Assembly: GCF_024231755.1 (NCBI RefSeq)
Contig: NZ_JAAEQH010000210.1
Span: forward strand, 1 to 64,000
DNA length: 64,000 nt
From: Neptuniibacter sp.
GTDB taxonomy: Bacteria > Pseudomonadota > Gammaproteobacteria > Pseudomonadales > Balneatricaceae
Direction of reading: 5' to 3'
Position numbers and translations under genes: made by a program. The notes under the pieces were generated by a model. That model did no database searches. It was given only the letters and a program-made list of their open reading frames with translations, and was not told the origin of the DNA. Below, one piece after another: positions 35,477 through 56,515 of this stretch (the first letter of the stretch is position 1; every line of letters begins with the position of its first letter).

Positions 35477-35491
35477 AGAATGGCTAGCTAG

Positions 35492-35743
35492 TCACTTAGC
35501 GTACGCCTTGCCTCCAATGATTTTGTAGGCAGGCGTACCTCGAACCAAAACATCTCGCGCAAACTCACCGCCACAACCGGGGCAGATACATGGCTGCTCA
35601 GTGTAGTCTTCGTTGATACGCTCCTTAAAGCACTTCACCAATGAGCCTTTGCCGCCCTTTCTGTACTTAAACAGATGGGTCTTGCAGCGACTACAATAAA
35701 CATCAACGGTTCTCAAAGGCCCCTTCTTATTAGGTTTTGCCAT
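35492..35743 (-). CDS. Small zinc-ribbon protein
   Basis: An 83-residue protein with two cysteine pairs, YCSRCKTHLFKY (~18-21) and CICPGCGGEF (~52-57), forming a probable zinc ribbon, with a Lys/Gly-rich loop between. I chose ATG 35743 because GGAGAAGG lies nine bases upstream; an earlier in-frame start at 35776 would add 11 residues with no such site. It is a short widespread gammaproteobacterial type with no assigned role that I know. It faces the convergent lipoprotein gene and diverges from the thioredoxin-fold gene. Confidence 0.75.
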   Translation of the reverse strand: MAKPNKKGPLRTVDVYCSRCKTHLFKYRKGGKGSLVKCFKERINEDYTEQPCICPGCGGEFARDVLVRGTPAYKIIGGKAYAK

Positions 35744-35808
35744 CTTAGTGAACCTTCTCCTTATCCAAGGCTCCAATACGAGTAATCATCATAAGCGGAT
35801 CGTTTGTA

Positions 35809-38151
35809 ATGCATAAAGGTAAATGGACATTCTTTATCCCCCTTGCACTAATAGCAACCCTGGGGATACCTATCACGGGTAAGGCAAATGAGATAAAGCT
35901 AATTCCACCAGCACTACAACATCAACTGCAATTGGTTTTAGATAACAAAAGTTTAACCTACCAACCAAGAACAAAACATCTGACAGAATCTGGCGGACCG
36001 CGCTTTACTAATCGTCTGTTACTTGAGTCCTCTCCCTACTTGCAACAGCATGCCCATAACCCGGTTAATTGGTATAGCTGGTCTAAAGAGGCGCTAGATA
36101 AAGCAAAACAGAAAAATAAGCCTATTTTTCTGTCTATTGGCTACTCAACCTGCCACTGGTGCCATGTAATGGAGGAAGAGAGTTTTGAGGATCTGGAGAT
36201 AGCAGCATTTCTTAATGAGCACTTCATCAGCATTAAAGTAGACCGTGAGCAGCTCCCCGATATCGATGAAACATATATGCTTGCAGCAGCCATGATCAGC
36301 GGTCAAACCGGTTGGCCCTTAAATGCATTCAATACCCCTGAAGCAGAGCCATTTTTTGCTGGGACTTACTTTCCTCCCAAACAGTTTCTTCAACTACTAC
36401 AACGAATTAAAAAACTTTGGCACGAAGAACAGACTGAAATCAGGGTTGATGCATCTAATACACTTTCTGCAATAAAAAGAATCAGTTCTACAAATAAAAG
36501 CGAGAGCAATAGTGTTAGTTATGAAACTCTCGCAGCGGCCACTGAACAATGGTTGGAATTGGCTGATGAGTTGCAAGGAGGCTTTGGTACCGCACCTAAA
36601 TTTCCCAATGAGCCAGCCCTATTCCTGCTGTTCGACCAAGCCATCCGAACTCAGGATCAAGCTCTGTTAGAAACCTTAAACCATACCCTTGAAGCGATAC
36701 ATCAAGGGGGAATCTATGATCAAGTTGGGGGAGGATTTCATCGCTATGCAATCGATCCTGAATGGTTAATTCCACACTTTGAAAAGATGCTCTACAACCA
36801 AGCACAACTGTCGCGCATTTATCTACAAGCCTATGAGATTAGCGGCAATCCTTTATTTGAACGGACTGCTCAAAACACACTCGAATATGTGTTACGCGAG
36901 ATGCGTAATAAACAGGGACTTTTCTACTCGGCAACCGACGCTGATAGCGAAGGTGAAGAGGGGCGTTTTTTCCTTTGGAATGAAGCTGAACTGAAAGAGG
37001 CCTTATCAGATCAAGAATTCCAACTGGCTTTTGCTCTGTATGGCCTTGAAAATGGCAGCAACTTTGATGGGAAAAACATTCTTTACCTGCCCAACTCCCT
37101 TCCGGAAGTTATTGTTTCTCAAGGTTACAAAGTCAATGATTTTTTCAAGCAGCTGAACAGTATTAACCAAAAGTTACTAGCTGCCCGCCAGCTCCGTCCT
37201 CACCCACATTTGGATAACAAAGTTATCACGGCATGGAACGGCATGATGATTCGCGCCCTTGCCGAAGCAGGTTCAACTCTAGGGGAGGTCCATTACCTAC
37301 AAGCTGCAATCAATGCTTCTGATACCCTGTGGCAGCAGCACTTTGGCTCATCAGGTTTACTCAGGGACAGGCTTGATAATATTGATGGCCAGCCGGCCAA
37401 CTTAGAGGATTATGCCTATTTCGCTGTAGCCAACATCAGTCTGTATGATTCCACAGGAAACCAGGAGTGGTTAAAGCGGGCTCAGATTCTGACAGATGAT
37501 ATGTTAAAACTTTTCTGGGATGAGCAAAATGAAATCATGTACCTCTCCAGAGCGGACACCTTACTGCCAGTTCGTGCAAGAAGTCGCGGTGACAATGCGA
37601 TTGCCAGCGGCGAATCAATCGCATACGAGGCACTATTACTGTTGGCAAAAAGGCAACCGAATCAACGTTACCTGACCACAGCCCAGAGGATGTTACAGGC
37701 TAACAGTGGTAATGTTTCTCGTAACCCGATGCAATATAGCTACTTGCTAAAAGCTTTCGGGCAAAATTCAAGCTATCTAAACAGAGTTCAATACGCTGCG
37801 CAGGGGGCCCTAAAAGCTGAGCTAACATCCACCGGCACAGGTTATATTCTGAAGATTCAATTAGCACCCGGCTGGCATATTAATGCCGAAAAACCGGGAC
37901 ATAAAAAGCTTATTGGAAGTAGTGTAAGCGCAGAATGGGTAGAGAAGGTAAGTTACCCTAAAGCGGAAAGCTTAGCGCTCTCTTTCGCTTCTCAGGATAT
38001 CAACCTCTTTACTGGCGAGTTTGATATCCACATCCAAGCTAAACAGAGTAAAAAGGTGCTTGATGAGCTACTTAGCTTTACCTTTCAGGCCTGTAGCGAC
38101 ACACAGTGCCTAGCACCGGAAACTCTTAAGTTCTCAGCGGCAATACAGTGA
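35809..38151 (+). CDS. Secreted YyaL/DUF255 thioredoxin-fold protein with DsbD-like C-terminus
   Basis: A 780-residue protein. The DUF255 thioredoxin-like domain (~65-220) holds [16 protein letters not shown] and the [16 protein letters not shown] motif, whose CxxC could be redox-active. An (alpha/alpha)6 barrel of the cellobiose-epimerase type follows (~235-640). Two things set it apart from the usual cytoplasmic YyaL/SSP411 proteins of ~680 residues: an N-terminal signal peptide (ITGKA, ~25) and a C-terminal domain (~665-780) like the periplasmic alpha domain of DsbD ([17 protein letters not shown] and [17 protein letters not shown], with two cysteines). It therefore probably works in the periplasm and may receive electrons from a DsbD-type system (inference). 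Confidence 0.87.
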
Positions 38152-38195
38152 AAGAATTCGGGGAACAGATTCTAAATCTGCCCCCCGATACAGGA

Positions 38196-39884
38196 TCAAG
38201 TTTTAAACTGGTTAACAAGTGCGTTAAGCCTCTGCTCCAGCTGTGCCATCTCTGTTGTTGTAGAGGCTAACTGGTCCGCATTACCACTGGCCCTCTCAGA
38301 GATATCTGCAATATGTTGCACACTGCGACTCAGCTCATCGGCCACAGAAGTTTGCTCCTCTGCAGCTGTTGCAATTTGTGTACTCATGCCACTGATTTCA
38401 CTCACGGACGAAGTGATAATATTCAACTGCTCACCCGTGTTCCCTGCTTTTTCAACAGTTTGATCAGTCTGCTCACGGCTACGCTCCATCTCTTGTACCG
38501 CCTGACGAGCACCTGTCTGCAGCTTCTCAATCATAGTCTGAATCTCATCAGTACTCTGCTGAGTACGATTCGCCAGTGTACGCACCTCATCCGCAACTAC
38601 TGAGAAACCACGGCCCTGCTCACCTGCTCGGGCAGCCTCAATCGCAGCATTCAAAGCCAGTAGGTTAGTCTGATCTGCAATCTCCTTGATAACATTAACG
38701 ACAGTACCAATATGCTCAGAGTCTTTATCCAGCTGAGCAATTACATCAGACGCGGTATTTACACCCGCTTGTAACGATTGAATAGAACCAATTGTCTCGT
38801 TTACTACATTCTGCCCACCTATAGCAGCTTCATCTGCAGACTGGGCAGAGTGCGAGGCATTGGTAGCATTTGTCGAGACTTCCTGAACTGCTGCAGCCAT
38901 TTCATGAATAGCAGCCGCAACCTGTTCAGTTTCACGCCGCTGTTCATCAACTTCTAAACGAGTGTTGTCAACAACACCTGTCATTCTGTTGGTTGCGCTG
39001 GAGAGATCCTCGATTGCACTTTTAACTTCAACTATGAGGCTCTGTATTTTGGCAGCGAAAGCATTAAAGCCCTTAGCTAACTCGCCTACTTCACCTTTGG
39101 CATTAGTATCCAGTCGTTTACTCAGATCACCTTCACCCTCACCAATATCCCTTAACGCTGCGGCAGCAGCTGCTAGTGGATTGGCAATGCCATTAGCAAA
39201 CATGGCTGCCAGTAGGCCGAAGACAAGTACAAATCCACCACCTACCAGGATAATGAACATCATGGTATTTGTGGTTTCTTCATCAAGAGCCTGATTTGCT
39301 TCGGCTATCTGGTCATCGATGTCATCGATATAGAAGCCTGTACCCACCATCCACTGCCACTTTTCGATGCTTCGGGCAAAGCTTAACTTATCAACATCCA
39401 TCTTCTTCGAAGGTTTAGCCCAGATGTACTTGACATACCCTCCCCCATTTTTCGCAGCATCAATCAGATCCTTAACGATAAGAACGCCATTTTTATCCTT
39501 TAAATCGATAAGGTTTTTGCCTTTTAACTGGGGTTTTGGCCGAGTCGCCATATTCACACCATCAAAGGTGTAAACGAAAATATAGCCGTCACCTTTTTTG
39601 CCGTAGGTTAGGGCTGTCAGCACTTCTAGGGCTTGATCCTGAGCTTCTTGCGAGTCAAGAGTCGTATCATCAGCAATATGCTGTACTGATGAAATAGCCA
39701 AGTCGACATAGCTCTTCAAGGCTTCCTGCTTACTCGCCATGAGTTCCGTTCGCAGCTGATCTATTTTCTTCTCCCCCATATCTCGTAGTTGCATGTTAGT
39801 TATCAACAAAACAACACCGAGTACGGCGATGAGAGGGATAAGTGTTAACAGAAGCACCTTCTGTTTCAGCGACATGTTGCCCAT
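38196..39884 (-). CDS. Methyl-accepting chemotaxis protein with single Cache sensor
   Basis: About 562 residues. TM1 (~10-30), a periplasmic sCache_2-type sensor (~35-185) with [28 protein letters not shown] and [17 protein letters not shown]2 (~208-230), HAMP (~232-285), then the signalling hairpin with [41 protein letters not shown]. Cache domains of this type bind small organic acids or related metabolites; the ligand cannot be read from sequence. ATG 39884 has GGAG eight bases upstream; a GTG three codons earlier is the alternative. No pentapeptide tether at the C-terminus. Confidence 0.9.
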
Positions 39885-39998
39885 TAATTGCACTCCACTC
39901 TTCTTAGATACGCTCTTTGTAATTATTTATTATGAATTAGTACTTTAGAACTAATTATTATCGATTATACAATTCGCAGTTATGATCTGCGACAAGCA

Positions 39999-40370
39999 CT
40001 AGGTTGCTTTCAGTTCAATACAGTTCCCATCTGGGTCTTCGATATAAACCGAAAGACCAAACCCTTTTGCTCCATTTCGCTGCTCAACCTTACCGTACGG
40101 AACCCCAACACTTTCCAGATAAGGTAAGAGAACGTCTGGTTCAAAAGGCTTTATACGCAGGCAGAAGTGATCCAAATTATTATCACCGGGCTTGTAATCC
40201 CCAGGTTTCAAATCAATCAGGGAATCTCCCGCCTTCAATTGATATAACTCGGGTTGAGTGACTTTTCTGATTAACTCACAACCAAGCACATCCACGTAGA
40301 ACTTCAGACTGCGTTCAATATCCTGAGTAACAAGCACAATATGATCTAACGTCTCAATCTCAAATCGCAT
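39999..40370 (-). CDS. VOC-family (glyoxalase-fold) protein
   Basis: A 123-residue protein of the vicinal-oxygen-chelate superfamily. It has the paired beta-alpha-beta-beta-beta modules: IETLDHIVLVTQDIERSLKFYVDVLGCEL, then LDHFCLRIKP, ending with VYIEDPDGNCIELKAT. Metal ligands likely are the His in LDHIVL, the His in LDHFCL and the Glu in CIELK. The reaction could be glyoxalase I-like, dioxygenase-like or resistance-related; sequence alone does not say. It stands alone. Confidence 0.85.
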   Translation of the reverse strand: MRFEIETLDHIVLVTQDIERSLKFYVDVLGCELIRKVTQPELYQLKAGDSLIDLKPGDYKPGDNNLDHFCLRIKPFEPDVLLPYLESVGVPYGKVEQRNGAKGFGLSVYIEDPDGNCIELKAT

Positions 40371-40965
40371 ATTGCCTCTGATGGGAGTATCTATGTGATT
40401 GTCTGCCCAGATAAATCTAAAATCCCAAATGCTCCGATTTCAACTTGAAACATAAGCACTTACTACCACTATAGAACGAATTAAAAATTAGTCCAAAAGC
40501 ATTGCACGTCAATATGTTAGTAATCTGTTGTGAAGGGGATGGTAAATACAGCTCAAGGAGAAGGCTTAGTTGCATACAAAGATTATTTAATAAATATAGT
40601 TGCAACTACTGTTCTATAGGCAATTAAGTTTCAATCACTGACGCCAAACACTGCCATAGATAAACTCTTACATCCCTGCCTGTTTGGGAACAGTATCTTC
40701 GAGAGTAAGGTAACACTAGAAAGGATATACGATATCAATCTCAGTTCGAGGGAGGCATAGTAGAACCATTCACGGGTTAACCTTAGGTAAATCTTCCCCC
40801 TCTCGAGACAAAAATAGTTTCAAGACCTCCTCCTAAATCCAACTTTAGTACGTAGAACCACTAAGTAACTTCCCGTACTAAAAAACGATTTTCCTATCAT
40901 TTTGCTCAAGTATTATCTGGTCAAATTTAAAAAGAATAAAAAATGATCAAAAGGACTAGGCCAAA
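40371..40965. other. Long intergenic stretch without a gene
   Basis: About 595 bases between the VOC gene and the next chemoreceptor. A 62-codon minus-strand frame at 40417-40605 has no ribosome site and an implausible composition. I see no clear tRNA, hairpin terminator or repeat. The right end must hold the chemoreceptor promoter. Confidence 0.5.
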
Positions 40966-42591
40966 ATGATTGTTAACAAGATGTCTGTCACTCACAAGTT
41001 GGCAACAATAATTCTGATGCTCCTGAGCCTGGGTGTATCAATGAAAGCCTATGACCTTTGGGAATATCGCCAAGGACTCTCACTCGAAAGGCAACGGCAA
41101 TCAGACAATGTGGTCGCTGTGGCTCACTCAATAATGCAAGGCTATTACAACAAGTATAAGGCCGGCTATATCTCATCGCTTGAAGCACAAGAGCGATCTT
41201 TAGATACTCTCAGAGAGATGCGCTATGACGGCAACAATTACGTCTGGGTAAATGATCTTGATGCCCGAATGATCATGCATCCAATCAAGCCCGAACTCGA
41301 TAACAAAGACCTCTCCGGTTTTAAGGATAGCAATGGCAAGCAACTGTTCTTAGATATTGCTACCAGTGCTCGACAAAACCAATCTGGATACCAAACCTAC
41401 CATTGGCCAAAACCAGGAGAATCTACTCCTCTGGAAAAACTTTCTTCATTTAAACTGTTTGAGCCCTGGGGCTGGGTTATTGGTACGGGAATTTACGTTG
41501 ACGATATTGAAGCTTTATTTTACGAAAAGATTTCAGAATCAGGCTTATTCTTAGCTATTTGCATTCCAATTGTGATTTGGTTTGCGATGCTGATTGTACG
41601 TTCCATCACTGCTCCTTTGGCACATATGGGTGATGTGATGAAAAAAGTAGCTGCCGGAAACCTGGTCGCCAGAATAGAAGTCAAAGGCAGTGATGAGCTT
41701 GGAGAGGTAAGCAAAGAGATAAACCGAACCTTAGATGTACAATTGGAGTTGATTCAGAAACTGAAGCATTCCAGTGAGCATATTCTGACGTCTGCAGAGA
41801 TCATGGCTACAACAACAGAGCAAACATCAACAGGTGTGAGACAGCAACATGGTGAAACGCAAATGTTGGCTGCCGCCATGCAAGAGATGTCCGCGACAGC
41901 ACAAGATGTAGCACAAAATGCGCAACAAACTGCAGATATAACTATTAAGGCAGAGAGCACAGCTCGTTTGGGTGATGAAATTGTTCAAAATACAATTGAT
42001 GCGATCAATGGATTGGCACATCAGGTTCAATCACAAGCGAGCGTTATCACTCAGCTTGAAGAAGATACCCTTCAAGTGGAAAGCTTCCTTAGTATCATCC
42101 GTGATATTTCTGATCAAACCAACCTACTTGCTTTAAATGCGGCTATCGAAGCAGCAAGAGCCGGCGAACAAGGTAGAGGGTTTGCGGTCGTCGCAGATGA
42201 GGTACGAGTCCTAGCAAAACGTACATCTGAATCAACAGACCAGATTCATAAGTTGAATGATCGACTTAAAAAGGCCTGCCAAGGCGCAGTTGGTATGATG
42301 AACGAAAGCCACAGCGAAGCACAGAGCTGTGTAGAACGCGCTGCAGCTGCAGGACAACATCTTAATGACATAGTGTTAAACGTGCAGCAGATCATGGAAA
42401 TGAACACTGTTGTCGCTTCTGTGGTGCAGCAGCAAAGCCAGGTAGCTGAAGAGATGAGCAGTAATCTGAGCAACATATCCACAATAGCAGAACAAACTCA
42501 GGGAGGAGCGGTTCAAACTGCTGAAAGCAGTGAGAAACTTGCAGCTCTGGCAAGGGACTTGAAAGGCCAGGTACAACAGTTTCAGATCTAA
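40966..42591 (+). CDS. Methyl-accepting chemotaxis protein with single Cache sensor
   Basis: A 541-residue chemoreceptor. TM1 (~10-28), a periplasmic Cache domain (~30-185) with [27 protein letters not shown] and [17 protein letters not shown]2 (~190-212), HAMP (~213-265), and the hairpin with [40 protein letters not shown]. The sensor has the same Cache type as the chemoreceptor at 38196-39884 but a different ligand-facing sequence. AAGGA stands nine bases before the ATG. It is closed by a strong terminator and is convergent with the first lut operon. Confidence 0.92.
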
Positions 42592-42596
42592 AATAA

Positions 42597-42625
42597 AAAA
42601 AGCGCTCTTAGTTAGAGCGCTTTTT
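42597..42625. terminator. Bidirectional terminator
   Basis: Stem AGCGCTCT (42601-42608) and AGAGCGCT (42614-42621), a 5-base loop, an A run on the left and a T run on the right. It serves the chemoreceptor (+) and the lut operon 1 (-). Confidence 0.9.
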
Positions 42626-42656
42626 CCAATCTTCATCCTAAGCAGGAATAGACATC

Positions 42657-42684
42657 AAATAACCTCTACTCCGAGCGGTTATTT
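42657..42684. terminator. Second hairpin after lut operon 1
   Basis: AAATAACC (42657-42664) and GGTTATTT (42677-42684) with a 12-base loop, directly after the lutC stop on the minus strand. It may be a backup terminator or a 3' protective stem. Confidence 0.45.
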
Positions 42685-42692
42685 TTCGATAG

Positions 42693-43379
42693 TCATTGGT
42701 CGTCAACAATAATTAAGTGCAAAACTTCAGGGCCATGCGCCCCTTGCACCAGAACGCCTTCAATATCGGTTGTACCGCTGGCACCTGAAATCAGGCACAT
42801 ATTCCTGGGAGTTGTACCTTGAGCGGCTATTTCATTGGCTATTGCCGCATAGTCATCCATGTAATGCAGAATTTTGGATCTCGGCACCACCGCAAGCAAA
42901 TACAGCGGTAAGAAATTTAAGAGTACCGGCATACTTTCGCTGGAATGAACCACAAAAGAGCCCGTTTCAGCTACACCGTACTCAGCAAAACATAATCCAA
43001 CCGTATTGTCGTTGTGAATATCAACATCGGTATTGATATCTGCCCACTCAAGCGATTGCAGAGAAGGCTTGTCCTGAACTTTTAATTCAGCGGGCAGATC
43101 ATACTTGCCCAGAAAACCTTTTACCGTTTCAGGCAACTGATCCAAAGAAGGTATACATTCACAACTGGTCCCTATAACCAACCCTTTCTCGACACGACGC
43201 ACCAATGCTTCAGCCGCATCTTCGGCCAGAAGCTCTGGTCGCGCATTTGTACTCTCAGTCAAAATAGCCGCAGCTTCTGCTTGAATAGTGCTCAGATCAG
43301 CTTCTGCTGTAGGTGCTGCACGCAAAATTGCATCAAAGATTTTATCGCGACTGGTCGTTTGCTCATTTTTATCAATCAT
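42693..43379 (-). CDS. lutC: Lactate utilisation protein C, copy 1 (LUD domain)
   Basis: A 228-residue LUD-domain protein, third gene of lut operon 1. LutABC together oxidise L-lactate to pyruvate through iron-sulfur centres. The fold is recognisable by VGLCFAEYGVAETGSFVVHSS, LNFLPLYLLAVVPRSKI and QGAHGPEVLHLIIVDD. The usual GPSRTADIE block reads GASGTTDIE here, unlike copy 2 (GPSRSADIG), so this copy has drifted at a conserved site. It starts 10 bases after lutB. Two hairpins follow the stop. Confidence 0.88.
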   Translation of the reverse strand: MIDKNEQTTSRDKIFDAILRAAPTAEADLSTIQAEAAAILTESTNARPELLAEDAAEALVRRVEKGLVIGTSCECIPSLDQLPETVKGFLGKYDLPAELKVQDKPSLQSLEWADINTDVDIHNDNTVGLCFAEYGVAETGSFVVHSSESMPVLLNFLPLYLLAVVPRSKILHYMDDYAAIANEIAAQGTTPRNMCLISGASGTTDIEGVLVQGAHGPEVLHLIIVDDQ

Positions 43380-43389
43380 CTTTGCGGCC

Positions 43390-44805
43390 TCACTTCTGAG
43401 CTTTCTTCATTTTTTTATATTGCTGCATAAAGGTTTGTGTCCCCGGTTCTATAAGATCACGGTTACGGGTCCAACCACTGGTCATCGGCATAGAACGAAT
43501 CCAGCCCTTTTTGCTAAACAACCTCATAAAGATCACTCCACAACTGCTGAACAGCTGGAACAGTGCCGGGCGCTTAGCGATGAAAGCAAACCCTTTTAAA
43601 AAGAAACGATTGGTAAGCGGCTCATACTTCTTCTCCCACGATTTCGCTCGTAAGGACCTTAATAATTTAGGCAGAGGAATTTTTACCGGGCAAACTTCTT
43701 CGCAACGACCATTTAACGTACAGGCGTGAGTTTGTTTGTTTGCTACCTTAAGACTGTTCAGATGAGGCGTTAATACCGATCCCATCGGGCCTGGATAAAC
43801 AGAACCATAAGCATGTCCACCAATATGTTTATAGACAACACAGTGGTTCATACAGGCGCCGCAGCGGATGCAACGCAACATCTCTTCCATACCCTCAGAG
43901 AGCATTTTTGTGCGGCCGTTATCGACTAGCACAATATGGTACTCTTCTGGCCCATCCACATCACCCTGACGTTTCGGGCCATTATGAAAGGTGATGTACT
44001 GGGTAATCTCACCACCAGTTGCTGAACGGGTCAGCAGACGCAGCAAAGGAACCGCATGTGCCATCGACGGTACAAGCTTCTCAATACCAGCAGTCACAAT
44101 ATGCACTTTCGGCGGGGTTGTCGTGAGTTCAGCATTACCTTCATTGGTAACCGTACAGGTTGATCCACTGTCTGCCAGCAGGAAATTCGAACCACTGATA
44201 CCAATATCCGCTGTCAGAAACTTGGTACGCAAATCACGGCGAGCACTTCTTACCAGCTCAATAATTTCCTCTGAGTAAGTTGGGTCTTTATGATTTTCGC
44301 GGAACAGTTTAATGACATCCTCGCGACTGCGATGCATAGCCGGCCAGACGATATGGGAAGGAGGGTCGCCGGCTAACTGGATAATATGTTCCGCGAGATC
44401 GGTTTCAACACGATCAATATCCGCATTATCTAACGCATGGGATAACCCGATCTCTTCGCCCAGCATAGACTTACTGCGTGTTATACGTTTAGCTTCATGC
44501 TTGCGGCAAATCTCAAGCACTTTGCGTGAGGCTTCTTCCGCATCACTCGCCCAGTGAATGATAGCTCCTTGAGCTTTGGCATTTTTTTCAAACTCGGCAA
44601 GGTAATGCGCCATATACTTGATGGTATGGTCTTTAACCTTTTGCCCTTGTATACGTGCGTTCTCGAACTCAGGAAAGTTTGCAATTGCTTCAGCACGCTT
44701 AGCCTCAGCCTTATCGGTAGTACGACGTATAACGGCCTTTAAATTAGGTTGTGACAGTGCTTCACTGACATTCTGTTCGAAGTTTTCTGGCTTATTTGCG
44801 TGCAT
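43390..44805 (-). CDS. lutB: Lactate utilisation iron-sulfur protein B, copy 1
   Basis: A ~471-residue protein with an N-terminal LUD domain (~60-290) and two [4Fe-4S] segments (~305-375). The first is CIRCGACMNHC. The second reads CTLNGRCEEVC, with Cys spacing x5-x3 instead of the x2-x3 seen in copy 2 (CGKCEEVC): the central Cys is Asn and an extra Cys lies three residues earlier. It passes electrons between the LutA subunit and the respiratory chain (family knowledge). ATG 44805 has GGGAG six bases upstream; an ATG two codons before sits on that site. The 5' end overlaps lutA by 14 bases. Confidence 0.88.
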   Translation of the reverse strand: MHANKPENFEQNVSEALSQPNLKAVIRRTTDKAEAKRAEAIANFPEFENARIQGQKVKDHTIKYMAHYLAEFEKNAKAQGAIIHWASDAEEASRKVLEICRKHEAKRITRSKSMLGEEIGLSHALDNADIDRVETDLAEHIIQLAGDPPSHIVWPAMHRSREDVIKLFRENHKDPTYSEEIIELVRSARRDLRTKFLTADIGISGSNFLLADSGSTCTVTNEGNAELTTTPPKVHIVTAGIEKLVPSMAHAVPLLRLLTRSATGGEITQYITFHNGPKRQGDVDGPEEYHIVLVDNGRTKMLSEGMEEMLRCIRCGACMNHCVVYKHIGGHAYGSVYPGPMGSVLTPHLNSLKVANKQTHACTLNGRCEEVCPVKIPLPKLLRSLRAKSWEKKYEPLTNRFFLKGFAFIAKRPALFQLFSSCGVIFMRLFSKKGWIRSMPMTSGWTRNRDLIEPGTQTFMQQYKKMKKAQK

Positions 44806-45619
44806 GACCATCTCCCAGAATCTCGGTTGCCATATCGGCCAAAACTTCAGCCGTATGTAAGGCTTTGATCTCTGAATGACCTTCCCGATTGAGTTTTCCA
44901 GCCATATTCATCAAACAACCCATATCTCCACCCAGTAGGTAATCCACTTTAGTGTCGAGAACATTTTCGATTTTCTCTTCCACAATAGCATCGGAGATAT
45001 CAGAGTATTTGACGCAGAACGTCCCACCAAAACCACAACATTCTGAATGGCCATGAAGGGGATTATGCTCTAAGCCGGAAACTTCAGAGAGCATTTTCCG
45101 CGGCTGCTCATAGACACCCAAAGAACGATAGCCAGAACAGCTATCGTGGTAAGTATATGTACCTTCAAGCTCCACCCCTTGTGGAACAAAATTACAAATA
45201 TCCACCAGGAAGGAAAGCAATTCATAGGTCTTATCAGCCAGTGCCTGTGCACGCGCCTGCCATTCGCTTTGACCTTCAAAGAGGTCGGCAAAATTTTTAA
45301 TAATCATGCCCGCACATGAACCCGAGGGGATCACTACATAATCAAATTCTTCGAATTGTTTAATGGTTTCATACGCGATTTGGCGTGTACCTTCGTCGTC
45401 ACCTGAATTAAAAGCGGGCTGCCCGCAGCACGACTGATGTTCTGGAACTTCAACACTACACCCAGCTTGTTCAAGCAGATCAAGTGCGGCGAATCCAACT
45501 GTTGGCCGCATAGTATTCACCAAACAGGTTACAAACAAACCAACCCGTTTATTGGTAATATCGACACTTTCTATAGTTCGCGCTGATACGCTGCCTACAT
45601 TAACGTAGTTATCTGACAT
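44792..45619 (-). CDS. lutA: Lactate utilisation protein A, copy 1 (CCG domains)
   Basis: A 275-residue protein with two cysteine-rich CCG domains: HQSCCGQPAFNSGDDE (~62-75) and SECCGFGGTFCVKYSDIS (~192-208), the ligands of a 4Fe-4S or noncubane cluster in this family. It has a ~25-residue N-terminal extension compared with copy 2. First gene of operon 1 on the minus strand. Its promoter region holds a copy of the operator palindrome about 155 bases upstream. Confidence 0.9.
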   Translation of the reverse strand: MSDNYVNVGSVSARTIESVDITNKRVGLFVTCLVNTMRPTVGFAALDLLEQAGCSVEVPEHQSCCGQPAFNSGDDEGTRQIAYETIKQFEEFDYVVIPSGSCAGMIIKNFADLFEGQSEWQARAQALADKTYELLSFLVDICNFVPQGVELEGTYTYHDSCSGYRSLGVYEQPRKMLSEVSGLEHNPLHGHSECCGFGGTFCVKYSDISDAIVEEKIENVLDTKVDYLLGGDMGCLMNMAGKLNREGHSEIKALHTAEVLADMATEILGDGHARK

Positions 45620-45772
45620 AAGCCTCTACCCTCACCAGCAGATCTTATAAAATGGCTCTGTATTTATTATTAGAAGGTAGCCGTGATGCTGATAAATATG
45701 CAGCGCTACTAACCATCTATCCCGTCTGAAGACATTACCCAGAGATTTAGAAGAATATAAGTCAGACACACC

Positions 45773-45791
45773 AACTGGTCTGACCAAGAAT
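45773..45791. promoter_or_regulatory. Lut operator, left copy
   Basis: AACTGGTCTGACCAAGAAT, containing the TGGT-N3-ACCA palindrome typical of FadR-subfamily GntR proteins (core 45776-45786). The exact reverse complement of all 19 bases stands at 46566-46584 on the other side of the regulator gene. This copy faces lut operon 1. Confidence 0.78.
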
Positions 45792-45850
45792 TATCTAGTT
45801 CCTATATTGATAAAGCATAGCTGCCAATACCCACTTCGTAATCGTTGTGC

Positions 45851-46552
45851 TTATTCTGAATCTTCAAGTTGCTTACGAGTGTAATCGATATGCTCGGCTG
45901 CAAGCTTTCGGGCAAGTGTGGCCTCACGATTTAAAAGGGCCTGATAAATTTGGGCATGTTGGGCACGGATTCCATCAGGATATCGACCAAATTTTTTGAG
46001 AGTACGATCTAGAACACCATAGATAGCATTAAAGAAACGGTTATAAAAAAGCTGGCTGAAAGAGATTACCAAAAGGTTATGGCTGGCCTCTGCGATCATC
46101 ATATGAAAACGCAGGTCTGCTTTTGCTTTAGCTAGCGTAGTGTTAACACTGCTTCGCTCCTGCATTGCGCGATATTCCTGACCAATTTTTTCTAACTGCT
46201 CATCAGTTGCACGCAACGCGGCATAATAGGCGGCCTCCCCTTCCAAAGCCGCACGCATCTCCATAACCTGCACCTGAAATTCAAAATTTTCTCCCAGTCC
46301 TTCCGGAGGCATCTCAAAATGGGATTCAAGAAGATTGCGGCATAGAGTTCCACCCCCATGATAGGTTTCCACCAGCCCTTTCAGTTCAAGATCATGGATC
46401 GCCTCACGGACGGTTTCACGGGAAAGGGAGTACTCCTGCGAGAGAACCCTTTGCGAGGGCAGTTTCTGCCCGGGGCAAAAATCACCAAAGGTTATCTTCT
46501 GCTGTAGTTTGTTACTGAGTTTGCTGCTCAGGTTGCTGTCTTGCTTCGTCAT
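45851..46552 (-). CDS. FadR/LldR-type GntR regulator of the lut operons
   Basis: About 233 residues. The winged HTH (~12-75) shows FCPGQKLPSQRVLSQEYSLSRETVREAIHDLELKGLVE; the C-terminal FCD domain (~95-225) is all-helical, with the metal/ligand His residues in LRFHMMIAEASHN and REATLARKLAAEHIDY. FCD regulators of this type (LldR, LutR) respond to lactate or related hydroxyacids. It lies between two divergent lutABC operons and is flanked by identical inverted operators, so it very likely controls both and itself. Start: ATG 46552 chosen; a GTG at 46564 is possible, and neither has a clear ribosome site. Confidence 0.87.
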   Translation of the reverse strand: MTKQDSNLSSKLSNKLQQKITFGDFCPGQKLPSQRVLSQEYSLSRETVREAIHDLELKGLVETYHGGGTLCRNLLESHFEMPPEGLGENFEFQVQVMEMRAALEGEAAYYAALRATDEQLEKIGQEYRAMQERSSVNTTLAKAKADLRFHMMIAEASHNLLVISFSQLFYNRFFNAIYGVLDRTLKKFGRYPDGIRAQHAQIYQALLNREATLARKLAAEHIDYTRKQLEDSE

Positions 46553-46565
46553 ATAAGCCAACACG

Positions 46566-46584
46566 ATTCTTGGTCAGACCAGTT
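46566..46584. promoter_or_regulatory. Lut operator, right copy
   Basis: ATTCTTGGTCAGACCAGTT, the exact reverse complement of the left copy (core TGGTCAGACCA at 46571-46581). It lies 14 bases before the regulator ATG and about 135 bases before lut operon 2, so it can serve autoregulation and operon 2 together. Confidence 0.78.
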
Positions 46585-46673
46585 ATGAGTTTAGCATTTC
46601 TTTTGTCTAGACCCTCAACTATCTTTTCATTATCAAATAGCTATGTGATCCTGGCACATACTTACAATAAGAA

Positions 46674-46709
46674 ACGGCGCCATCTCCTTGTACTGCTCCT
46701 AGGTGCCGT
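46674..46709 (+). promoter_or_regulatory. Hairpin in the lut operon 2 leader
   Basis: Arms ACGGCGCC (46674-46681) and GGTGCCGT (46702-46709) with one G-U pair and a 20-base loop. It ends nine bases before the lutA start and its loop contains CTCCTTG. No ribosome site is obvious for that start, so the structure may influence translation. Confidence 0.4.
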
Positions 46710-46718
46710 CATATAGCG

Positions 46719-47525
46719 ATGACGAAGATGTTGAATCAAACAAACACCCCAAAGGTAGGCCTGTTTGTCACCTGTCTTGCCGATATGTTCCGCCCCAGTG
46801 TGGCTTTTGCCACAGTTAAACTACTGGAAATGTCTGGTTGCTCAGTAGAAGTTCCAGATAAACAAACCTGCTGTGGCCAGCCTGCTTACAACTCAGGTGA
46901 TAAAGAAACAACTAAAGAGATTGCTCGCCAGACAATTGAAGCATTCGACGGCTATGAATATGTTGTCGGGCCATCTGGATCCTGTATAGGCATGCTGCAC
47001 TATTACGTCGATCTATTTGATGATACTGATCCTTGGAAAGCCCGCGCCGTTGATCTGAAATCCCGTGCCTTTGAGATCACTCAATTTCTGACGGATATAG
47101 TCGGCTTTGACCAGATCAACGCAGTGTTCGAAGGCACAATTACCTATCACGATTCCTGCTCAGGCCTGCGCCAGCTAGGCATCAAACAGCAACCACGCAA
47201 GCTGCTCTCAAAAGTTGATAATCTGACGCTTAATGAGATGGAAGAAGCTGAAACCTGCTGTGGTTTCGGTGGTACTTTCTGCGTTAAATACCCGGATATT
47301 TCCAACCGTATGGTTTCCAACAAAACCCAATATATCAGTGATTCTGAGGCAACCACACTGGTCGGCGGAGATCTTGGTTGTCTGCTAAATATGGCTGGCA
47401 AGTTAAAGCGTGAAGGTAAGCAGGTTGAAGCGCGCCACGTCGTTGAGATTCTTGCGGGTATGGCAGATACCCCTGCAATTGGCGAAGCAGATTATGATCT
47501 GGCTTCTGAGCTTAAGGCCGGGTAA
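46719..47525 (+). CDS. lutA: Lactate utilisation protein A, copy 2 (CCG domains)
   Basis: A 268-residue CCG-domain protein, first gene of lut operon 2. The two cluster motifs are KQTCCGQPAYNSGDKE (~45-60) and ETCCGFGGTFCVKYPDIS (~178-195). It is clearly paralogous to copy 1 over its length but without the N-terminal extension. The start at 46719 lacks a clear ribosome site; ATG 46728 is a possible alternative. Five bases separate its stop from lutB. Confidence 0.92.
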   Translation: MTKMLNQTNTPKVGLFVTCLADMFRPSVAFATVKLLEMSGCSVEVPDKQTCCGQPAYNSGDKETTKEIARQTIEAFDGYEYVVGPSGSCIGMLHYYVDLFDDTDPWKARAVDLKSRAFEITQFLTDIVGFDQINAVFEGTITYHDSCSGLRQLGIKQQPRKLLSKVDNLTLNEMEEAETCCGFGGTFCVKYPDISNRMVSNKTQYISDSEATTLVGGDLGCLLNMAGKLKREGKQVEARHVVEILAGMADTPAIGEADYDLASELKAG

Positions 47526-47530
47526 TTGAT

Positions 47531-48958
47531 ATGCAGATTAAAAGTCCTGAATTTAAAGAAAATGCCCGTATCGCCCTACACGATGTTGATCTGCAAGAAG
47601 CACTAGGTCAGTTCAAACACGGCTTCCCGGTGAACCGCGCCAATGCCATAAAACGCTTACCTGAATTTGAAGATCTGCGTGATGAAGCGCGAGACCTTAA
47701 GAACCATATTATTCAGAATCTGGATATTTATCTAGAACGGTTTGAATCAAAGGTCATTGAAAGCGGCGGCCATGTTCACTGGTGCAGCACAGGTGAAGAT
47801 GCCAATAAAACCATTCTGGATATCTGTAAACAGGTCAATGCAAAAACCATAACTAAAGGGAAATCAATGGTTTCGGAAGAAACCGGTTTGAATGAATACC
47901 TTGAAGCTAATGGTGTCCGCCCCGTAGAAACCGACCTGGGTGAATACATCCTTCAACTACGTAATGATCACCCAAGTCACATTATAGCCCCTGCAATTCA
48001 CCTTAATGTGGATGATGTCTCGGAGACCTTCCACGAACATCATAAGCGCCCGAAAACAGGAGATCCTCAGGCCCTTATGCAAGAGGCCCGTGAAGTACTG
48101 CGTAAGGAGTTTGTCAGTGCAGATGTGGGACTCACAGGAGCCAATTTTCTGGTAGCAGAAACTGGCTCCACCATTATTGTTACGAATGAGGGTAACGGCG
48201 ATCTGACTCAGACCCTGCCGAAAACCCACATTGTTATTACCTCTATCGAGAAAGTGATACCAACCCTAGAAGATATGAGCCTGTTCTTACGCTTGCTGGC
48301 ACGTTCAGCAACCGGACAGGAGTTCGCGGTATATAACACACTGTCCAGCGGTCCCAAACGCGCTGAAGATCAGGATGGCCCGGAAAACTTCCATGTGGTT
48401 CTGGTAGATAACGGTCGCAGTGAGATGGTGGGAACTGAATTTCAGGATATGCTGCGTTGTATCCGTTGCTCATCCTGTATGAACCACTGTCCGGTTTATG
48501 GTGCCGTTGGTGGTCACAGCTATGGTTGGGTTTACCCTGGCCCAATGGGCTCGGTTTTAACGCCCAAAATGATCGGCATTGATAAAGCTGCTCATCTGCC
48601 TAACGCCTCTACATCCTGCGGTAAGTGTGAGGAGGTCTGTCCGGTACGTATCCCTCTACCGAAGATGATGCGCCATTGGCGTGAAAAAGAGTTCGAAAAA
48701 CACCTAACACCTAAAGCGGTACGCTATGGTATTGCAAGTTGGGCGTTCTTCGCTAAACGCCCTTCCCTTTATCGCTGGCTAGCACGTGGATCTGCATGGT
48801 TTATGATTACGATCGCTGGTAAGAAAGGACGAATTAAGAAATTACCTCTGGCTGGAGGCTGGACCGACTGGCGAGATATGCCTGCCCCACAGGGCAAAAC
48901 CTTTATGGATCAGTGGAAATCCGGGTCTCATTCATTACAAAAGCAGGCGGAGAAATAA
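47531..48958 (+). CDS. lutB: Lactate utilisation iron-sulfur protein B, copy 2
   Basis: A 475-residue LutB. An LUD domain (~60-295) is followed by the canonical ferredoxin-type pair: CIRCSSCMNHCPVY (~309-322) and SCGKCEEVCPVRIPLPKM (~362-380). Here all cysteines have the usual spacing, in contrast to copy 1. The C-terminal part is a basic helical region that may dock on the membrane chain. It sits between lutA and lutC with 5- and 1-base gaps. Confidence 0.92.
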   Translation: MQIKSPEFKENARIALHDVDLQEALGQFKHGFPVNRANAIKRLPEFEDLRDEARDLKNHIIQNLDIYLERFESKVIESGGHVHWCSTGEDANKTILDICKQVNAKTITKGKSMVSEETGLNEYLEANGVRPVETDLGEYILQLRNDHPSHIIAPAIHLNVDDVSETFHEHHKRPKTGDPQALMQEAREVLRKEFVSADVGLTGANFLVAETGSTIIVTNEGNGDLTQTLPKTHIVITSIEKVIPTLEDMSLFLRLLARSATGQEFAVYNTLSSGPKRAEDQDGPENFHVVLVDNGRSEMVGTEFQDMLRCIRCSSCMNHCPVYGAVGGHSYGWVYPGPMGSVLTPKMIGIDKAAHLPNASTSCGKCEEVCPVRIPLPKMMRHWREKEFEKHLTPKAVRYGIASWAFFAKRPSLYRWLARGSAWFMITIAGKKGRIKKLPLAGGWTDWRDMPAPQGKTFMDQWKSGSHSLQKQAEK

Positions 48959-48959
48959 G

Positions 48960-49652
48960 ATGAGCAAAGCAGAGATTCTTGGCAATATCCGCCGTGGCCT
49001 TAATCGTGGTGAACCATCACCCGCACAAAAAGCTGCGACCACCCGACGTATGAACGCCCATAAAGCAACCATTATCCCTAAGCGCTCGCAACTGGATCAG
49101 GCAGGACAGATTCAACTGTTCCGGGATATGGCCAGTGGTGCAGCAGCCGAGCTGATCGATATTAGTACGATGAATGAGCTACCATCAGCAGTGGCAGAGT
49201 GGCTTAATAAGCATGAGTTCAAAACCCTGGTCAGTGCTAGCGATGACAGTCTGAATGAGCTGGACTGGACTCCATTAGGTGATATCCAACGCGAGCAGCG
49301 GGTCGCTCAATCCGGTGATGTAGCCAGCCTGACAACATCCATGGCGGGGATCGCGGAAACCGGCACACTGATGCTCTATTCCCGACCAGAGAGCCCGACT
49401 ACTCTTAATTTCCTTCCAGATTGCCATCTTGTTGTGCTCAAGGAGTCTGACATTGCAGGTAGCTACGAAGATGCCTGGAACCGGCTTAGAGAGCTGAACC
49501 CAAATGGAATGCCCCGTACAGTAAATATGATCACCGGCCCATCACGGAGTGCAGATATTGGCCAGAAACTGCAAATGGGAGCCCATGGCCCCTGTGCCTT
49601 GATCATATTTATTCTGAAGAATTGTGAAACGATCTTTCACTCAGATGGTTAA
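48960..49652 (+). CDS. lutC: Lactate utilisation protein C, copy 2 (LUD domain)
   Basis: A 230-residue LUD-domain protein, last gene of operon 2. The conserved blocks are TTSMAGIAETGTLMLYS, LNFLPDCHLVVL, the canonical MITGPSRSADIGQ and MGAHGPCALIIFIL. It starts one base after the lutB stop and is followed by a terminator hairpin. Confidence 0.92.
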   Translation: MSKAEILGNIRRGLNRGEPSPAQKAATTRRMNAHKATIIPKRSQLDQAGQIQLFRDMASGAAAELIDISTMNELPSAVAEWLNKHEFKTLVSASDDSLNELDWTPLGDIQREQRVAQSGDVASLTTSMAGIAETGTLMLYSRPESPTTLNFLPDCHLVVLKESDIAGSYEDAWNRLRELNPNGMPRTVNMITGPSRSADIGQKLQMGAHGPCALIIFILKNCETIFHSDG

Positions 49653-52416: not shown

Positions 52417-53421
52417 TCAACCGAATGGTGCAACTATATCCAGATCCAACAACTCAGGAAATGCATTTCGCACCTGTGCTTCATACTCGCTATGGAACAG
52501 TAGTTTGAGGTTGGGTCCCGCATCCATAGTTAGATACACGGGTACTCCCAGTGCTCGCAACTCCCATACCCTATGCATAGCCGCTACAGATTCAGGTTGC
52601 CAGTAAAGTAACGGTGGCCATGAAGCGATCATTGTTGCATGCATGGAAAGTGCATTCTGCTCTGCGGTTTGTCCAAGTAACTCTAAATCACGATCCGCAA
52701 TAGCTCGCTTGATAGTCGCCAGATCATTTGCTGCCTGTTGTGGCCACGATTGATATAGATCGGCCGATTCAACGGTACGCTGCATCCCGGAGCGGGAATC
52801 AACTTTCTTCGCTCCGGTTGCTACTTTCAACAAACCAATACGGAAGCCGGGCCAAGTGATATCCAGACGCTCAGCGCAGCTATCCATGCCATCATCACGC
52901 ACACCTTTGTGCCACTCGACAAAACCCTGATAGATAGAACGAGAAGCACTGCCACTGCCCATCCGGGCAAAAGCGGACAGTTTATCGTCGCTCAGTCCAA
53001 GGTTATAAAAATCATTGATTGCCAGCGTAAGTGCTGCAAAACCAGAAGCAGACGAAGCAAGTCCAGCAGCGGTTGGAATGTTATTAATTGTTTTTACACA
53101 AACAGGCTGATTAAGCTCACCTCTGAACAGATTGATAAAAGCGATCACCTTGCGAGCGAAACTATTATCTTCAGCCTGTAATTCATGATTCAAGTAAACC
53201 TGATCAGCTCCAGTTTCTGATTCGGTTATTTCAGTACGGCTGCCCAGTTCTCCTAGAGAAATAGAGAGCGAACCATTAATTGGTAGATTGAGTTCCACAT
53301 CACGTTTACCCCAATACTTACACAACGCAATGTTACTGGGAGCAAAAGCTTCGGCATGCGTGCCAGGTAAAGGTTGATCGGGCAGATAAGTGTTAATAAC
53401 AGTCTGCTTAGTGATACTCAA
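52417..53421 (-). CDS. mvaD: Diphosphomevalonate decarboxylase
   Basis: A 334-residue GHMP-family enzyme making isopentenyl diphosphate from mevalonate diphosphate with ATP. The start motif is APSNIALCKYWGKRDVELNLP (~27-47), the phosphate loop NIPTAAGLASSASGFAALTLA (~112-132), and the catalytic Asp lies in YLTMDAGPNLKLL (~300). It ends the mevalonate operon and overlaps the preceding kinase gene by 14 bases. Confidence 0.93.
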   Translation of the reverse strand: MSITKQTVINTYLPDQPLPGTHAEAFAPSNIALCKYWGKRDVELNLPINGSLSISLGELGSRTEITESETGADQVYLNHELQAEDNSFARKVIAFINLFRGELNQPVCVKTINNIPTAAGLASSASGFAALTLAINDFYNLGLSDDKLSAFARMGSGSASRSIYQGFVEWHKGVRDDGMDSCAERLDITWPGFRIGLLKVATGAKKVDSRSGMQRTVESADLYQSWPQQAANDLATIKRAIADRDLELLGQTAEQNALSMHATMIASWPPLLYWQPESVAAMHRVWELRALGVPVYLTMDAGPNLKLLFHSEYEAQVRNAFPELLDLDIVAPFG

Positions 53422-54349
53422 TGGTGACTCCTTGCTCAGATACGGCTACAGGTATCTGCTCATATGAAATAGATAACTCTGGATCGGCTCCTAAAGCCAA
53501 CACACAATCCCCAAGACCGGAGCCTGAGATTTTGGCCCCTTGGATACGCTCACTTTCGCGCAAAGCATAAACGATTTCGCTGATAGATTTATCCGAGACA
53601 CCTAGCGCGTCCATCAATCCCTGATAATTATTCATCAGGTTGCCAAGATTACCCCAATCTCCAGTTGAGACAGCTTGTTCAGCCTTATCGGTAACCAGCC
53701 CCATCAACTTGTAGATATCCCGGTACACATCGGGATTATTAGCGCAAAAGCCCTCGACGATCTTAAGCACATCCGGTGTTTTGGTTTTATAACCCGCATA
53801 ATAGAGCGAGATCTCTGGTAAACCTGCAAGAGCCTTTATTTTACGAGGCTTCACCCGGTAAGAAACGGTCGAACCATAAATACTGGCAACTAGATCAGTC
53901 CCCGAACCTCTGCCATCTTGAACCTGATGGACGACTTTTAAAGCAAGATCAAACAGCTCATCCTTTTCCGTACTACCACCGGCATAAGCAGACAATGCAG
54001 CCACGACCCCTGCAGTTACTGCAGCTGAAGAACCTAGACCGACTGTATGCGAGAACTCTGAACTGATTTTTAGGGAGAAACCTGAAGGCAGCTCTTTTAC
54101 CAAAAGTTCCACTGCAGCTAACACGAAGCTTAGTTTTGGTTCCTGTTGAAGATCAGTAAGCGATGCCTTGTACTGAGCTAAAGCGGAATCAATTAATATC
54201 TCATCGGATTCCAAAGGTATCAGCTCTATATGGATATATTTATCCACTGCACAAGCCAACGCTTTTTCTCCAAAAAGAACCGAGTGTTCTCCCATCAGCA
54301 TGATACTGCCAGGTACTTTAACTTTAATCTTTTTCAAGACAAGCTCCAT
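53408..54349 (-). CDS. GHMP kinase of the mevalonate pathway (mevalonate kinase or phosphomevalonate kinase)
   Basis: A 313-residue GHMP kinase. Motifs: PGSIMLMGEHSVLFGEKALACAVDKYI (~14-40), the phosphate loop TVGLGSSAAVTAGVV (~106-120), a catalytic-type Asp in GRGSGTDLVAS (~146-156), and KISGSGLGDCVLALG (~273-287). The operon needs one mevalonate kinase and one phosphomevalonate kinase; the GLGDC ending and the GEH start resemble annotated mevalonate kinases of gammaproteobacterial operons, but I cannot settle which of the two kinases this is. It overlaps the next kinase gene by 26 bases. Confidence 0.85.
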   Translation of the reverse strand: MELVLKKIKVKVPGSIMLMGEHSVLFGEKALACAVDKYIHIELIPLESDEILIDSALAQYKASLTDLQQEPKLSFVLAAVELLVKELPSGFSLKISSEFSHTVGLGSSAAVTAGVVAALSAYAGGSTEKDELFDLALKVVHQVQDGRGSGTDLVASIYGSTVSYRVKPRKIKALAGLPEISLYYAGYKTKTPDVLKIVEGFCANNPDVYRDIYKLMGLVTDKAEQAVSTGDWGNLGNLMNNYQGLMDALGVSDKSISEIVYALRESERIQGAKISGSGLGDCVLALGADPELSISYEQIPVAVSEQGVTIEYH

Positions 54350-55334
54350 GATATGACGGTTTCAGCGGTTCGAGACAGATCTGTAAAGAACGAGATATAT
54401 CATTCACATTAAGGTCAGGTAGATAAACCAATACTTGACCGCCGCTTTCTCCCTGAATAGAACCCGCGCCACAAATCTTAGCTGCGCCACCTAAACGTTC
54501 AATTTCGCGGATAACCTTCTCAACCGGTTTTGGTACTACGCCAATCTGTTCGAGCAACTGTGAATTACATCGGATCTGCTCCAGTATCCGAGATGGTTTT
54601 TTATCTTTTAGAGCCTTTTCAAACGTTTCTGTGACAACCTTAAACTTATCCCAGATATCAGAGGAAGCATGTTTCTGGCGAACTGCAGCAACCGTTTCAC
54701 CTGTAGTTGAATCCGGCGTACCGCTACTCCAGGTATACCAGTTCTGATCCAGGTTGATGGGTAACGAACTAACATGTCCCCCTACCACTTTAATCACACC
54801 ACCATAGGTAACCGCTGCAGCATCAATAGCACTACCCCGCCCATGCTGGAGACGTTCACAGTACCGAACTCTGGTAAACAGGTTATCAAGATCTGAATTA
54901 AAACTTGCCGAGCTCTCCCTTGCCGAACTCTCCGCTAATTTTGATAACGCGGCAATTACTGCTGCAGATGAACCCATACCTGAACCAGTAGGAATATCAC
55001 TTTTTATATCAATTTGACCAGAACTCTTAAATCCTGACTGGGCGAGAGTATAGAAAAGTAGATCACCTGGTGAATCAAGTAGTTCAGAAATACTGATTTG
55101 ATCAGAAATAAAACGTTGAAAACGCTGATCCAATAGCTCAACCAAGGACTGTAATTCAGATGTCTTAAGCTTGAATATGCCTAGACCGTATGAATGAATG
55201 GTGAGGCTATTGGTATCATGAGGAGTAAAAGCTGCCGTTACAGATTGCTCTACTGCAACAGCAATAGCAGGAGCCCCATAAACTACCGAGTGTTCCCCAC
55301 TCAGTATGAGTTTACCAGGGGCCTTAGCCTTCAT
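54324..55334 (-). CDS. GHMP kinase of the mevalonate pathway (second of the mevalonate/phosphomevalonate pair)
   Basis: A 336-residue GHMP kinase. Motifs: APGKLILSGEHSVVYGAPAIA (~4-24), the loop IPTGSGMGSSAAVIAAL (~115-131), Asp in GRGSAIDAAAVTYGG (~168), and KICGAGSIQGESGG near ~298. The start motif is mevalonate-kinase-like, while the GAGSIQG end differs from standard mevalonate kinases, so it may be the phosphomevalonate kinase. Assignment between this and the neighbour stays open. It overlaps mvaS by one base (TAATG type). Confidence 0.85.
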   Translation of the reverse strand: MKAKAPGKLILSGEHSVVYGAPAIAVAVEQSVTAAFTPHDTNSLTIHSYGLGIFKLKTSELQSLVELLDQRFQRFISDQISISELLDSPGDLLFYTLAQSGFKSSGQIDIKSDIPTGSGMGSSAAVIAALSKLAESSARESSASFNSDLDNLFTRVRYCERLQHGRGSAIDAAAVTYGGVIKVVGGHVSSLPINLDQNWYTWSSGTPDSTTGETVAAVRQKHASSDIWDKFKVVTETFEKALKDKKPSRILEQIRCNSQLLEQIGVVPKPVEKVIREIERLGGAAKICGAGSIQGESGGQVLVYLPDLNVNDISRSLQICLEPLKPSYHGACLEKD

Positions 55335-56500: not shown

Positions 56501-56515
56501 TATTGGGTCTCGATC

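Follow-up and report, generated by a model that had tools for sequence, protein, structure and literature searches.

We analyzed a 64,000-nucleotide stretch of a Neptuniibacter genome (assembly GCF_024231755.1, contig NZ_JAAEQH010000210.1, positions 1 to 64,000; hereafter the window, its genome being G000), in which a regulator gene of the GntR family separates two divergent lutABC operons of the lactate oxidation type. The original prediction, made from the sequence alone, had placed a complete lutABC set on either side of this gene. This held: all seven open reading frames are intact, and their proteins match the corresponding domain families in Pfam and NCBIfam profile searches. The features of the locus are as follows.

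42693–43379, minus strand: lutC1 (operon 1), LUD domain (PF02589, 1.2e-24); amino acid identity 91% to the G008 copy and 69–71% to other copies in the genus
43390–44811, minus strand: lutB1 (operon 1), LUD and Fer4_8 domains; TIGR00273 (LutB/LldF) at 444.8 bits, equal to the cut-off of 444.8
44792–45619, minus strand: lutA1 (operon 1), CCG domains, PF02754 in two stretches
45773–45791, minus strand: putative operator of operon 1, reading TTCTTGGTCAGACCAGTTG towards lutA1, about 152 b ahead of it
45851–46564, minus strand: GntR/FCD regulator, LldR/PdhR-like (PF00392, 1.6e-15; PF07729, 3.2e-21)
46566–46584, plus strand: putative operator of operon 2 and perhaps also of the regulator; presumed ancestral copy, conserved across genera
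46588–46626, plus strand: conserved blocks past the operator, likely the operon 2 promoter; constant in all six Neptuniibacter genomes compared, those that have operon 2 next to the regulator
46719–47525, plus strand: lutA2 (operon 2), CCG domains, PF02754 in two stretches
47531–48958, plus strand: lutB2 (operon 2), LUD and Fer4_8 domains; TIGR00273 at 485.3 bits, above the cut-off
48960–49652, plus strand: lutC2 (operon 2), LUD domain (PF02589, 3.2e-23)

LldEFG of Shewanella is a known L-lactate oxidation operon. Like the LutABC/LldEFG operon described in the available part of PMC3924224, each operon of the window has three genes in the order A-B-C, encoding a CCG-CCG LutA, a LutB with LUD and ferredoxin-like Fe4S4 domains, and a LUD-domain LutC; the window differs in carrying two non-orthologous copies that flank one regulator. 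The Fe-S cysteines of LutA and LutB are conserved in both operons. In LutA1 all listed cysteines are present in 16/16 alignment rows, and in LutA2 eight are present in 21/21 rows, with two more in 20 and 18 rows. Since the operons share only 54% (LutA), 46% (LutB) and 31% (LutC) amino acid identity, they are not duplicates of each other. The description of a duplicated Lut locus in the original prediction has accordingly been abandoned: the LutB of operon 1 falls in a separate clade together with those of Colwellia, Leucothrix and others, and genome comparison points to displacement.

The 19-base sequences at 45773–45791 and 46566–46584 are exact reverse complements of each other. No longer inverted match exists between the intergenic regions on the two sides, which measure 231 and 154 b; the chance estimate is 231 x 154 x 4^-19, or ~1e-7. 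Both 19-mers contain TGGT-N3-ACCA, which occurs exactly twice in the window. The copies had been called mirror-image operators; they are indeed exact inverted copies, but as the site reads TTCTTGGTCAGACCAGTTR towards both operons, the symmetry merely gives it the same orientation relative to the transcription of each. The published FadR-subfamily consensus consists of TKGT/ACMA boxes, and divergons of this subfamily with single or double sites have been studied in numbers, according to the available part of PMC4494728.

In the 4.49 Mb G000 assembly, TGGT-N3-ACCA alone gives no genome-wide signal (126 places vs. 110 for the reversed control), and TGGTCNGACCA occurs 5 times vs. 6 in the control. 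The 13-base core ACTGGTCWGACCA occurs without mismatch at two places in the assembly, both at this locus; with one mismatch allowed it is not enriched (5+9 vs. 9+10 in the reversed control). A site or variant precedes operon 1 in all six genus genomes in which operon 1 adjoins the regulator. Scored against the core, it reaches 15/15 in G000, G003, G004 and G008 and 13/15 in G005 and G001; the core itself is exact in five of the six, with one change in G001. A scan for sigma-70 promoters returned 3 sites vs. 2.2 expected. A genome-wide regulon defined by TGGTCNGACCA was considered and rejected, the other G000 places (C183, C258, C323) lying in or near genes with no visible link to lactate, with frames judged by eye. 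Two smaller observations concern related sequences: TGTCTG (window 45761–45768) stands downstream of the operon 1 operator in 5/6 genus genomes and may be a second, weak regulator site, and G008 carries a perfect palindrome, TTACTGGTCAGACCAGTAA, within a MerR-type gene frame (L122:1180-1198), where inspection by eye of the 6 kb fetched showed no lactate gene.

The regulator has the N-terminal GntR helix-turn-helix (HTH) and C-terminal FCD domains of the FadR subfamily, and its start is probably the ATG at 46552. Residues D150, H154, H203 and H225 are constant in 25/25 rows, a pattern which we take to be the metal ligands of metal-binding FCD repressors. It shares with LldR-, PdhR- and GlcC-type regulators the HTH and FCD domains, the D-H-H-H pattern and the TGGT-N3-ACCA palindrome, whereas it scores under the NCBIfam cut-offs of all three and stands beside lut operons; it is LldR-like but outside the LldR equivalog. 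The proposal of one regulator for two systems is retained insofar as a single GntR/FCD regulator has a putative operator ahead of each operon, and dropped insofar as it implied duplication. Besides the TIGR00273 matches and the LldR-like regulator, a lactate connection comes from G010, where an exact core, TGGTCTGACCA (L123:5436-5446), lies 111 b ahead of an LldD-type L-lactate dehydrogenase gene, whose product scores above the cut-off of an NCBIfam subfamily model for L-lactate dehydrogenase (437.6 vs. 376 bits). This gene is likely a further member of the regulon, and its position behind the core supports a lactate regulon.

The regulator is divergent to operon 2 in 14 fetched genomes from other genera of the family. 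TGGT-N3-ACCA lies between regulator and lutA2, or at the edge of that interval, in 12 of these, nine times as TGGTCNGACCA, and the remaining two have variants with one change (G011, TGATCTGACCA; G024, TGGTCAGGCCA). In G012, where the frame caller missed the regulator and lutA, TGGTCAGACCA precedes the lut operon. Given 126 occurrences in 4.49 Mb, the chance of the motif in 150 b is ~0.004, but as the genomes are related, the 12 with the motif are not independent cases. LutB was found in 90/116 genomes of a family survey, and lutB2 groups with the family's LutBs in the tree. By this conserved arrangement, operon 2, the regulator and the putative operator are the family's ancestral divergent unit. 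Two LutB copies occur in three surveyed genomes, adjacent in G000 and G004 and apart in G457, the genome of Neptunomonas qingdaonensis.

Operon 1 is of a different LutB type from the family's native operon, judged by a LutB1 scan of named genomes that returned 17 loci. Five are in Neptuniibacter (99, 88, 88, 87 and 86% identity), two are distant (62 and 46%), and those at 83–85% are in N. qingdaonensis, Colwellia, Pseudocolwellia, Leucothrix arctica and Glaciecola. Within the family, the type occurs in 7 of the 90 LutB-positive genomes, first assigned by score and all seven confirmed by sequence; G043 has a score equal to that of LutB1, its LutB frame not having been picked by the frame caller. 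A search for further LutBs covered the 10 genomes behind the LutB1 loci, Glaciecola being left out. The operon-1-type LutB was the sole one found in 8/8 Colwellia-type/Leucothrix genomes searched, some of them incomplete bins that may miss a second copy, and two LutBs each were found in N. qingdaonensis and the Vin_4 bin.

The gene order around operon 1 differs among these relatives. A LysR-type gene is divergent to the operon in all seven Colwellia/Pseudocolwellia loci (its type was tested in four), and at L057, L059, L063 and L064 the operon is followed by genes encoding an outer membrane protein, of the DcaP family in L064, and a TRAP transporter. The TRAP binding protein of L064 best matches 2hzk (entry name SmoM) and 7ug8 (ketoacid-binding) and, more weakly, 7e9y (lactate-binding TTHA0766), a further pointer to lactate. 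At the Leucothrix locus there is a separate GntR gene, with a TGGTAAGACCA site, as well as a gene for a GlcD/YdiJ-like dehydrogenase. That the two operons arose by tandem duplication of one operon and diverged in place would fit their common A-B-C gene order and common operator, but LutB1 is 83–85% identical to Colwellia/Leucothrix LutB vs. 46% to LutB2, and LutB2 groups with the family. We regard this origin as hardly credible, and a recent duplication is refuted by these identities and groupings.

The 11 Neptuniibacter genomes form a series at the regulator. Both operons are present in G000 and G004, operon 1 only in G001, G003, G005 and G008, and operon 2 only in G002, G007, G009 and G010; G006 has operon 2 without a neighboring regulator. 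A marker tree was constructed from polB and six genes of the mevalonate cluster, and was rebuilt without G011 after that outgroup had fallen on a very long branch. It contains the nested group (G007 op2,(G001 op1,(G004 both,(G003 op1, G005 op1)))), starred throughout. A single clade of all six operon-1 genomes was rejected by the marker data (p 1.5e-41). An ancestral operon 2 would imply a minimum of three losses (in G008, in G001, and in G003 with G005).

Several operon-1-only genomes retain a stub of the operon 2 promoter region upstream of the regulator. In G008 it matches the window at 28/29 b (E 8e-8), and over 46 b the stubs of G003 and G005 are 87% (E 2e-9) and 91% (E 3e-13) identical to G004. 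The stub operator cores are GGGTCAGACCA (G008), CGGTCAGACCA (G001), TGGACAGACCC (G005) and TGGAC-GACCA (G003), none of the four being exact, and in 3/4 operon-1-only genomes the core on the operon 1 side is exact while that of the stub is broken. The operon-2-side core is exact in 5/6 genomes with operon 2 beside the regulator; the sixth, G004, has TGGACAGACCA, whose T-to-A change is common to the G003 and G005 stubs. As the genomes are related, these counts are not independent events. Given the decaying promoter and operator stubs, operon 2 was probably once present in the operon-1-only genomes and has since been lost.

We consider it likely that one lactate-responsive repressor governs both non-orthologous operons and that their pairing represents a stage of operon displacement in situ. 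The ancestral unit would have consisted of the regulator, its operator and operon 2 in divergent arrangement, and an operon 1 of Colwellia-like type would have inserted at the regulator's other side, preceded by an identical operator that faces its transcription in the same way. The regulator would occupy both operators and keep both operons off as long as lactate or a close 2-hydroxyacid is lacking; with lactate, both would be derepressed, and both complexes would oxidize lactate to pyruvate. Once operon 1 was established, operon 2 may have become dispensable, its operator decaying before the operon was deleted. The genus series contains what displacement would leave behind, namely a foreign-type operon at the native place and loss of the native operon with a trace, weak in the case of G001. 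The regulatory part of this reading is plausible. The parts of the locus are otherwise ordinary, and the displacement series is its more interesting content. More tentatively, and with low confidence, the shared operator may be what makes displacement possible, and the exchange may swap in an enzyme of another redox property or substrate.

Several points weigh against this explanation. For the direction of transfer, the LutB of genus copies other than G008 is 86–88% identical to the window copy, little above the 83–85% of Colwellia. Approximately unbiased (AU) test values (p 0.49 and 0.45) favor neither one nor several entries of operon 1 into Neptuniibacter; the concatenated operon 1 tree had 15 rows, without Glac66 (partial C gene) and Vin67 (far outgroup). 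In the marker tree, the pair of G000 (both) and G008 (operon 1) has support of 81/83, the deep branches of the genus lack resolution, and the outgroup, 28% filled, is odd in composition; moreover, the marker genes adjoin the locus and could recombine themselves. The G001 stub extends over 13 b only (E 0.87), tblastn found no operon 2 protein remnants with a convincing E-value in the operon-1-only genomes, and the stub may have been retained because it serves as promoter of the regulator itself, in which case it would be no relic. Regarding lactate, the best NCBIfam model of the regulator, LldR (NF007741), is matched at 132.3 bits vs. a cut-off of 311, the G010 LldD-type protein falls under the LldD exception model (390 vs. 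550), and no lactate permease (PF02652) was found in the 11 genus genomes. Identical function of LutB1 and LutB2 is not assured, because one cluster cysteine is placed differently. Finally, the G000 assembly is fragmented (384 contigs, 88.7% complete, 5.9% contaminated).

This cysteine difference bears on the possibility that one regulator controls two enzymes of different tasks, both kept by selection, whether for another 2-hydroxyacid, an isomer, an electron acceptor, or an iron or oxygen condition. The second cluster motif is CX5CX3CP (C364/C370/C374) in 17/17 operon-1-type LutB rows and CX2CX3CP in 21/21 LutB2 rows; at five loci outside the family LutB looks like LutB2, and that of L067, a distant relative of LutB1, looks like LutB1. 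The constancy of this difference keeps such a division of labor a live rival. Divergence of the operons (46% for LutB) is in line with it, as is their intact state under low dN/dS (0.009–0.11 for operon 1 between G000 and G008; 0.024–0.025 for A2 and B2 between G000 and G010, with C2 saturated). Pseudomonas aeruginosa, moreover, keeps two differently controlled L-lactate dehydrogenases, LldD and LldA, as far as the available part of PMC11389411 describes them. That case is like the window in having two such enzymes per cell, but LldD and LldA are FMN enzymes with separate regulators (LldR, LldS) in different genomic contexts, whereas the window has Fe-S enzymes under one regulator at one locus. 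Against separate tasks, operon 2 is missing, with stubs, from 4/6 operon-1 carriers of the genus, and the same operator ahead of both operons argues for the same signal. Although two different 2-hydroxyacids, one suggestion of the original prediction, may be involved, the same reaction fits better, because the operon-1-type LutB is the sole one found in the 8/8 Colwellia-type/Leucothrix genomes searched, some of them incomplete, and stands without operon 2 in 4/11 Neptuniibacter genomes. On balance, a lasting partition of function appears rather unlikely.

A model in which the operators act on the regulator and operon 2 alone, with the operon-1 copy present by chance and operon 1 under another regulator, is improbable. 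The divergent LysR-type gene of Colwellia would be a precedent, and AraC-type genes occur near operon 1 in G001 (L044:9901-10320, 81 b downstream of lutC1), G005 (L043:5305-6192, 0.7 kb) and G004 (L040:1184-2014, 4.2 kb). In the window, however, operon 1 is adjoined by the regulator and a chemoreceptor gene, with no AraC-type gene next to it, and the pattern of exact operon-1-side core and broken stub core in three of four operon-1-only genomes also speaks against it.

Comparison of the window with G008 bears on the history of operon 1 and on the assembly. At 4-fold degenerate sites the two differ by 18, 28 and 28% in A1, B1 and C1 vs. 60% in the regulator, 69% in polB and 71% in mvd; for the control pair G003–G004, operon 1 (49, 34 and 47%) is closer to its neighbors' 53–63%. 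Per 100 b, DNA identity between window and G008 is 85–98% over 42.7–45.7 kb and 60–85% over 45.8–46.6 kb, the regulator. This profile indicates a recent exchange of operon 1 between the window and the G008 lineage.

An assembly chimera, in which operon 1 of another organism had been joined to the contig, would fit operon 1 genes that are 90–94% identical in DNA to G008 vs. 72–78% right of the locus, in a draft with contamination. The left flank (33400–42690) argues otherwise: its best pieces are 69–74% identical to nine of ten relatives (G006 gave a short match only), and it is no closer to G008 (72%) than to G010 and G007 (73%) or G009 (74%), so it is not DNA of the G008 species, and a chimera with such DNA is not supported. 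The GC content of operon 1 (0.44–0.47) is similar to that of the surrounding DNA, and the same layout is present in G004. A chimera is very improbable. Within this flank, homologous pieces of 33400–42591 lie 34–83 kb from the lut locus in G002, G003, G004, G007, G009 and G010, so the window's chromosome has probably been rearranged there.

The paired layout had been called unusual, and it is rare in the samples searched, with one further genus genome, G004, sharing it. LutB was found in 98/390 genomes of the order sample (8 with two copies, 2 of them adjacent, G000 and G004), 59/369 of the class sample (3 with two, 1 adjacent, G000) and 64/398 of the phylum sample (5 with two, 1 adjacent, G000). 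The samples overlap, G000 being in each and some others in two. A second LutB could be missed, because scoring was limited to four candidates per genome, and in some drafts (e.g. G573, G1070) the two LutB copies sit close to the ends of separate contigs and may or may not be adjacent. No title matching a paired lut layout was found in the literature searched, mostly non-subscription, and absence from print is not claimed.

Omelchenko and colleagues reportedly described mosaic operon evolution and xenologous gene displacement in situ in 2003. The proposed displacement at the Neptuniibacter locus is alike in that a foreign version replaces the native one at the same chromosomal place, and differs in that a coexistence stage, a shared operator and a decaying native stub are visible in one genus. 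In our judgement, most cases of operon replacement are deduced from their end states. Here, the native operon alone, both operons, and the newcomer alone all occur at one regulator within a single genus, and in one clade the decaying stub hints at the sequence of steps. Under the more tentative reading, in which the shared operator makes displacement possible, a foreign operon that arrives next to a native regulator whose operator is already in place would be correctly regulated at once, and the operator of the native promoter would decay ahead of the loss of the native operon. Whether correct regulation on arrival decides which foreign operon wins could be tested in culturable marine bacteria, and the locus also allows two LutABC types to be compared in a natural setting.

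Two genes for methyl-accepting chemotaxis proteins lie near operon 1. One (40966–42591, plus strand) contains Cache domains according to Pfam, with matches to PDB entries 4k08 and 5g4y; the other (38196–39893, minus strand) matches 2qhk and 4exo. Because such sensor domains often bind C2/C3 carboxylates, lactate chemotaxis is conceivable. On the other side of the locus, a mevalonate cluster (52417–58578, minus strand) in this gammaproteobacterial host encodes a diphosphomevalonate decarboxylase, two mevalonate-kinase-like proteins, an HMG-CoA synthase, a type 2 IPP isomerase and an HMG-CoA reductase-like protein, and relatives of most of its genes are present in the stretches fetched from each of the 11 Neptuniibacter genomes.

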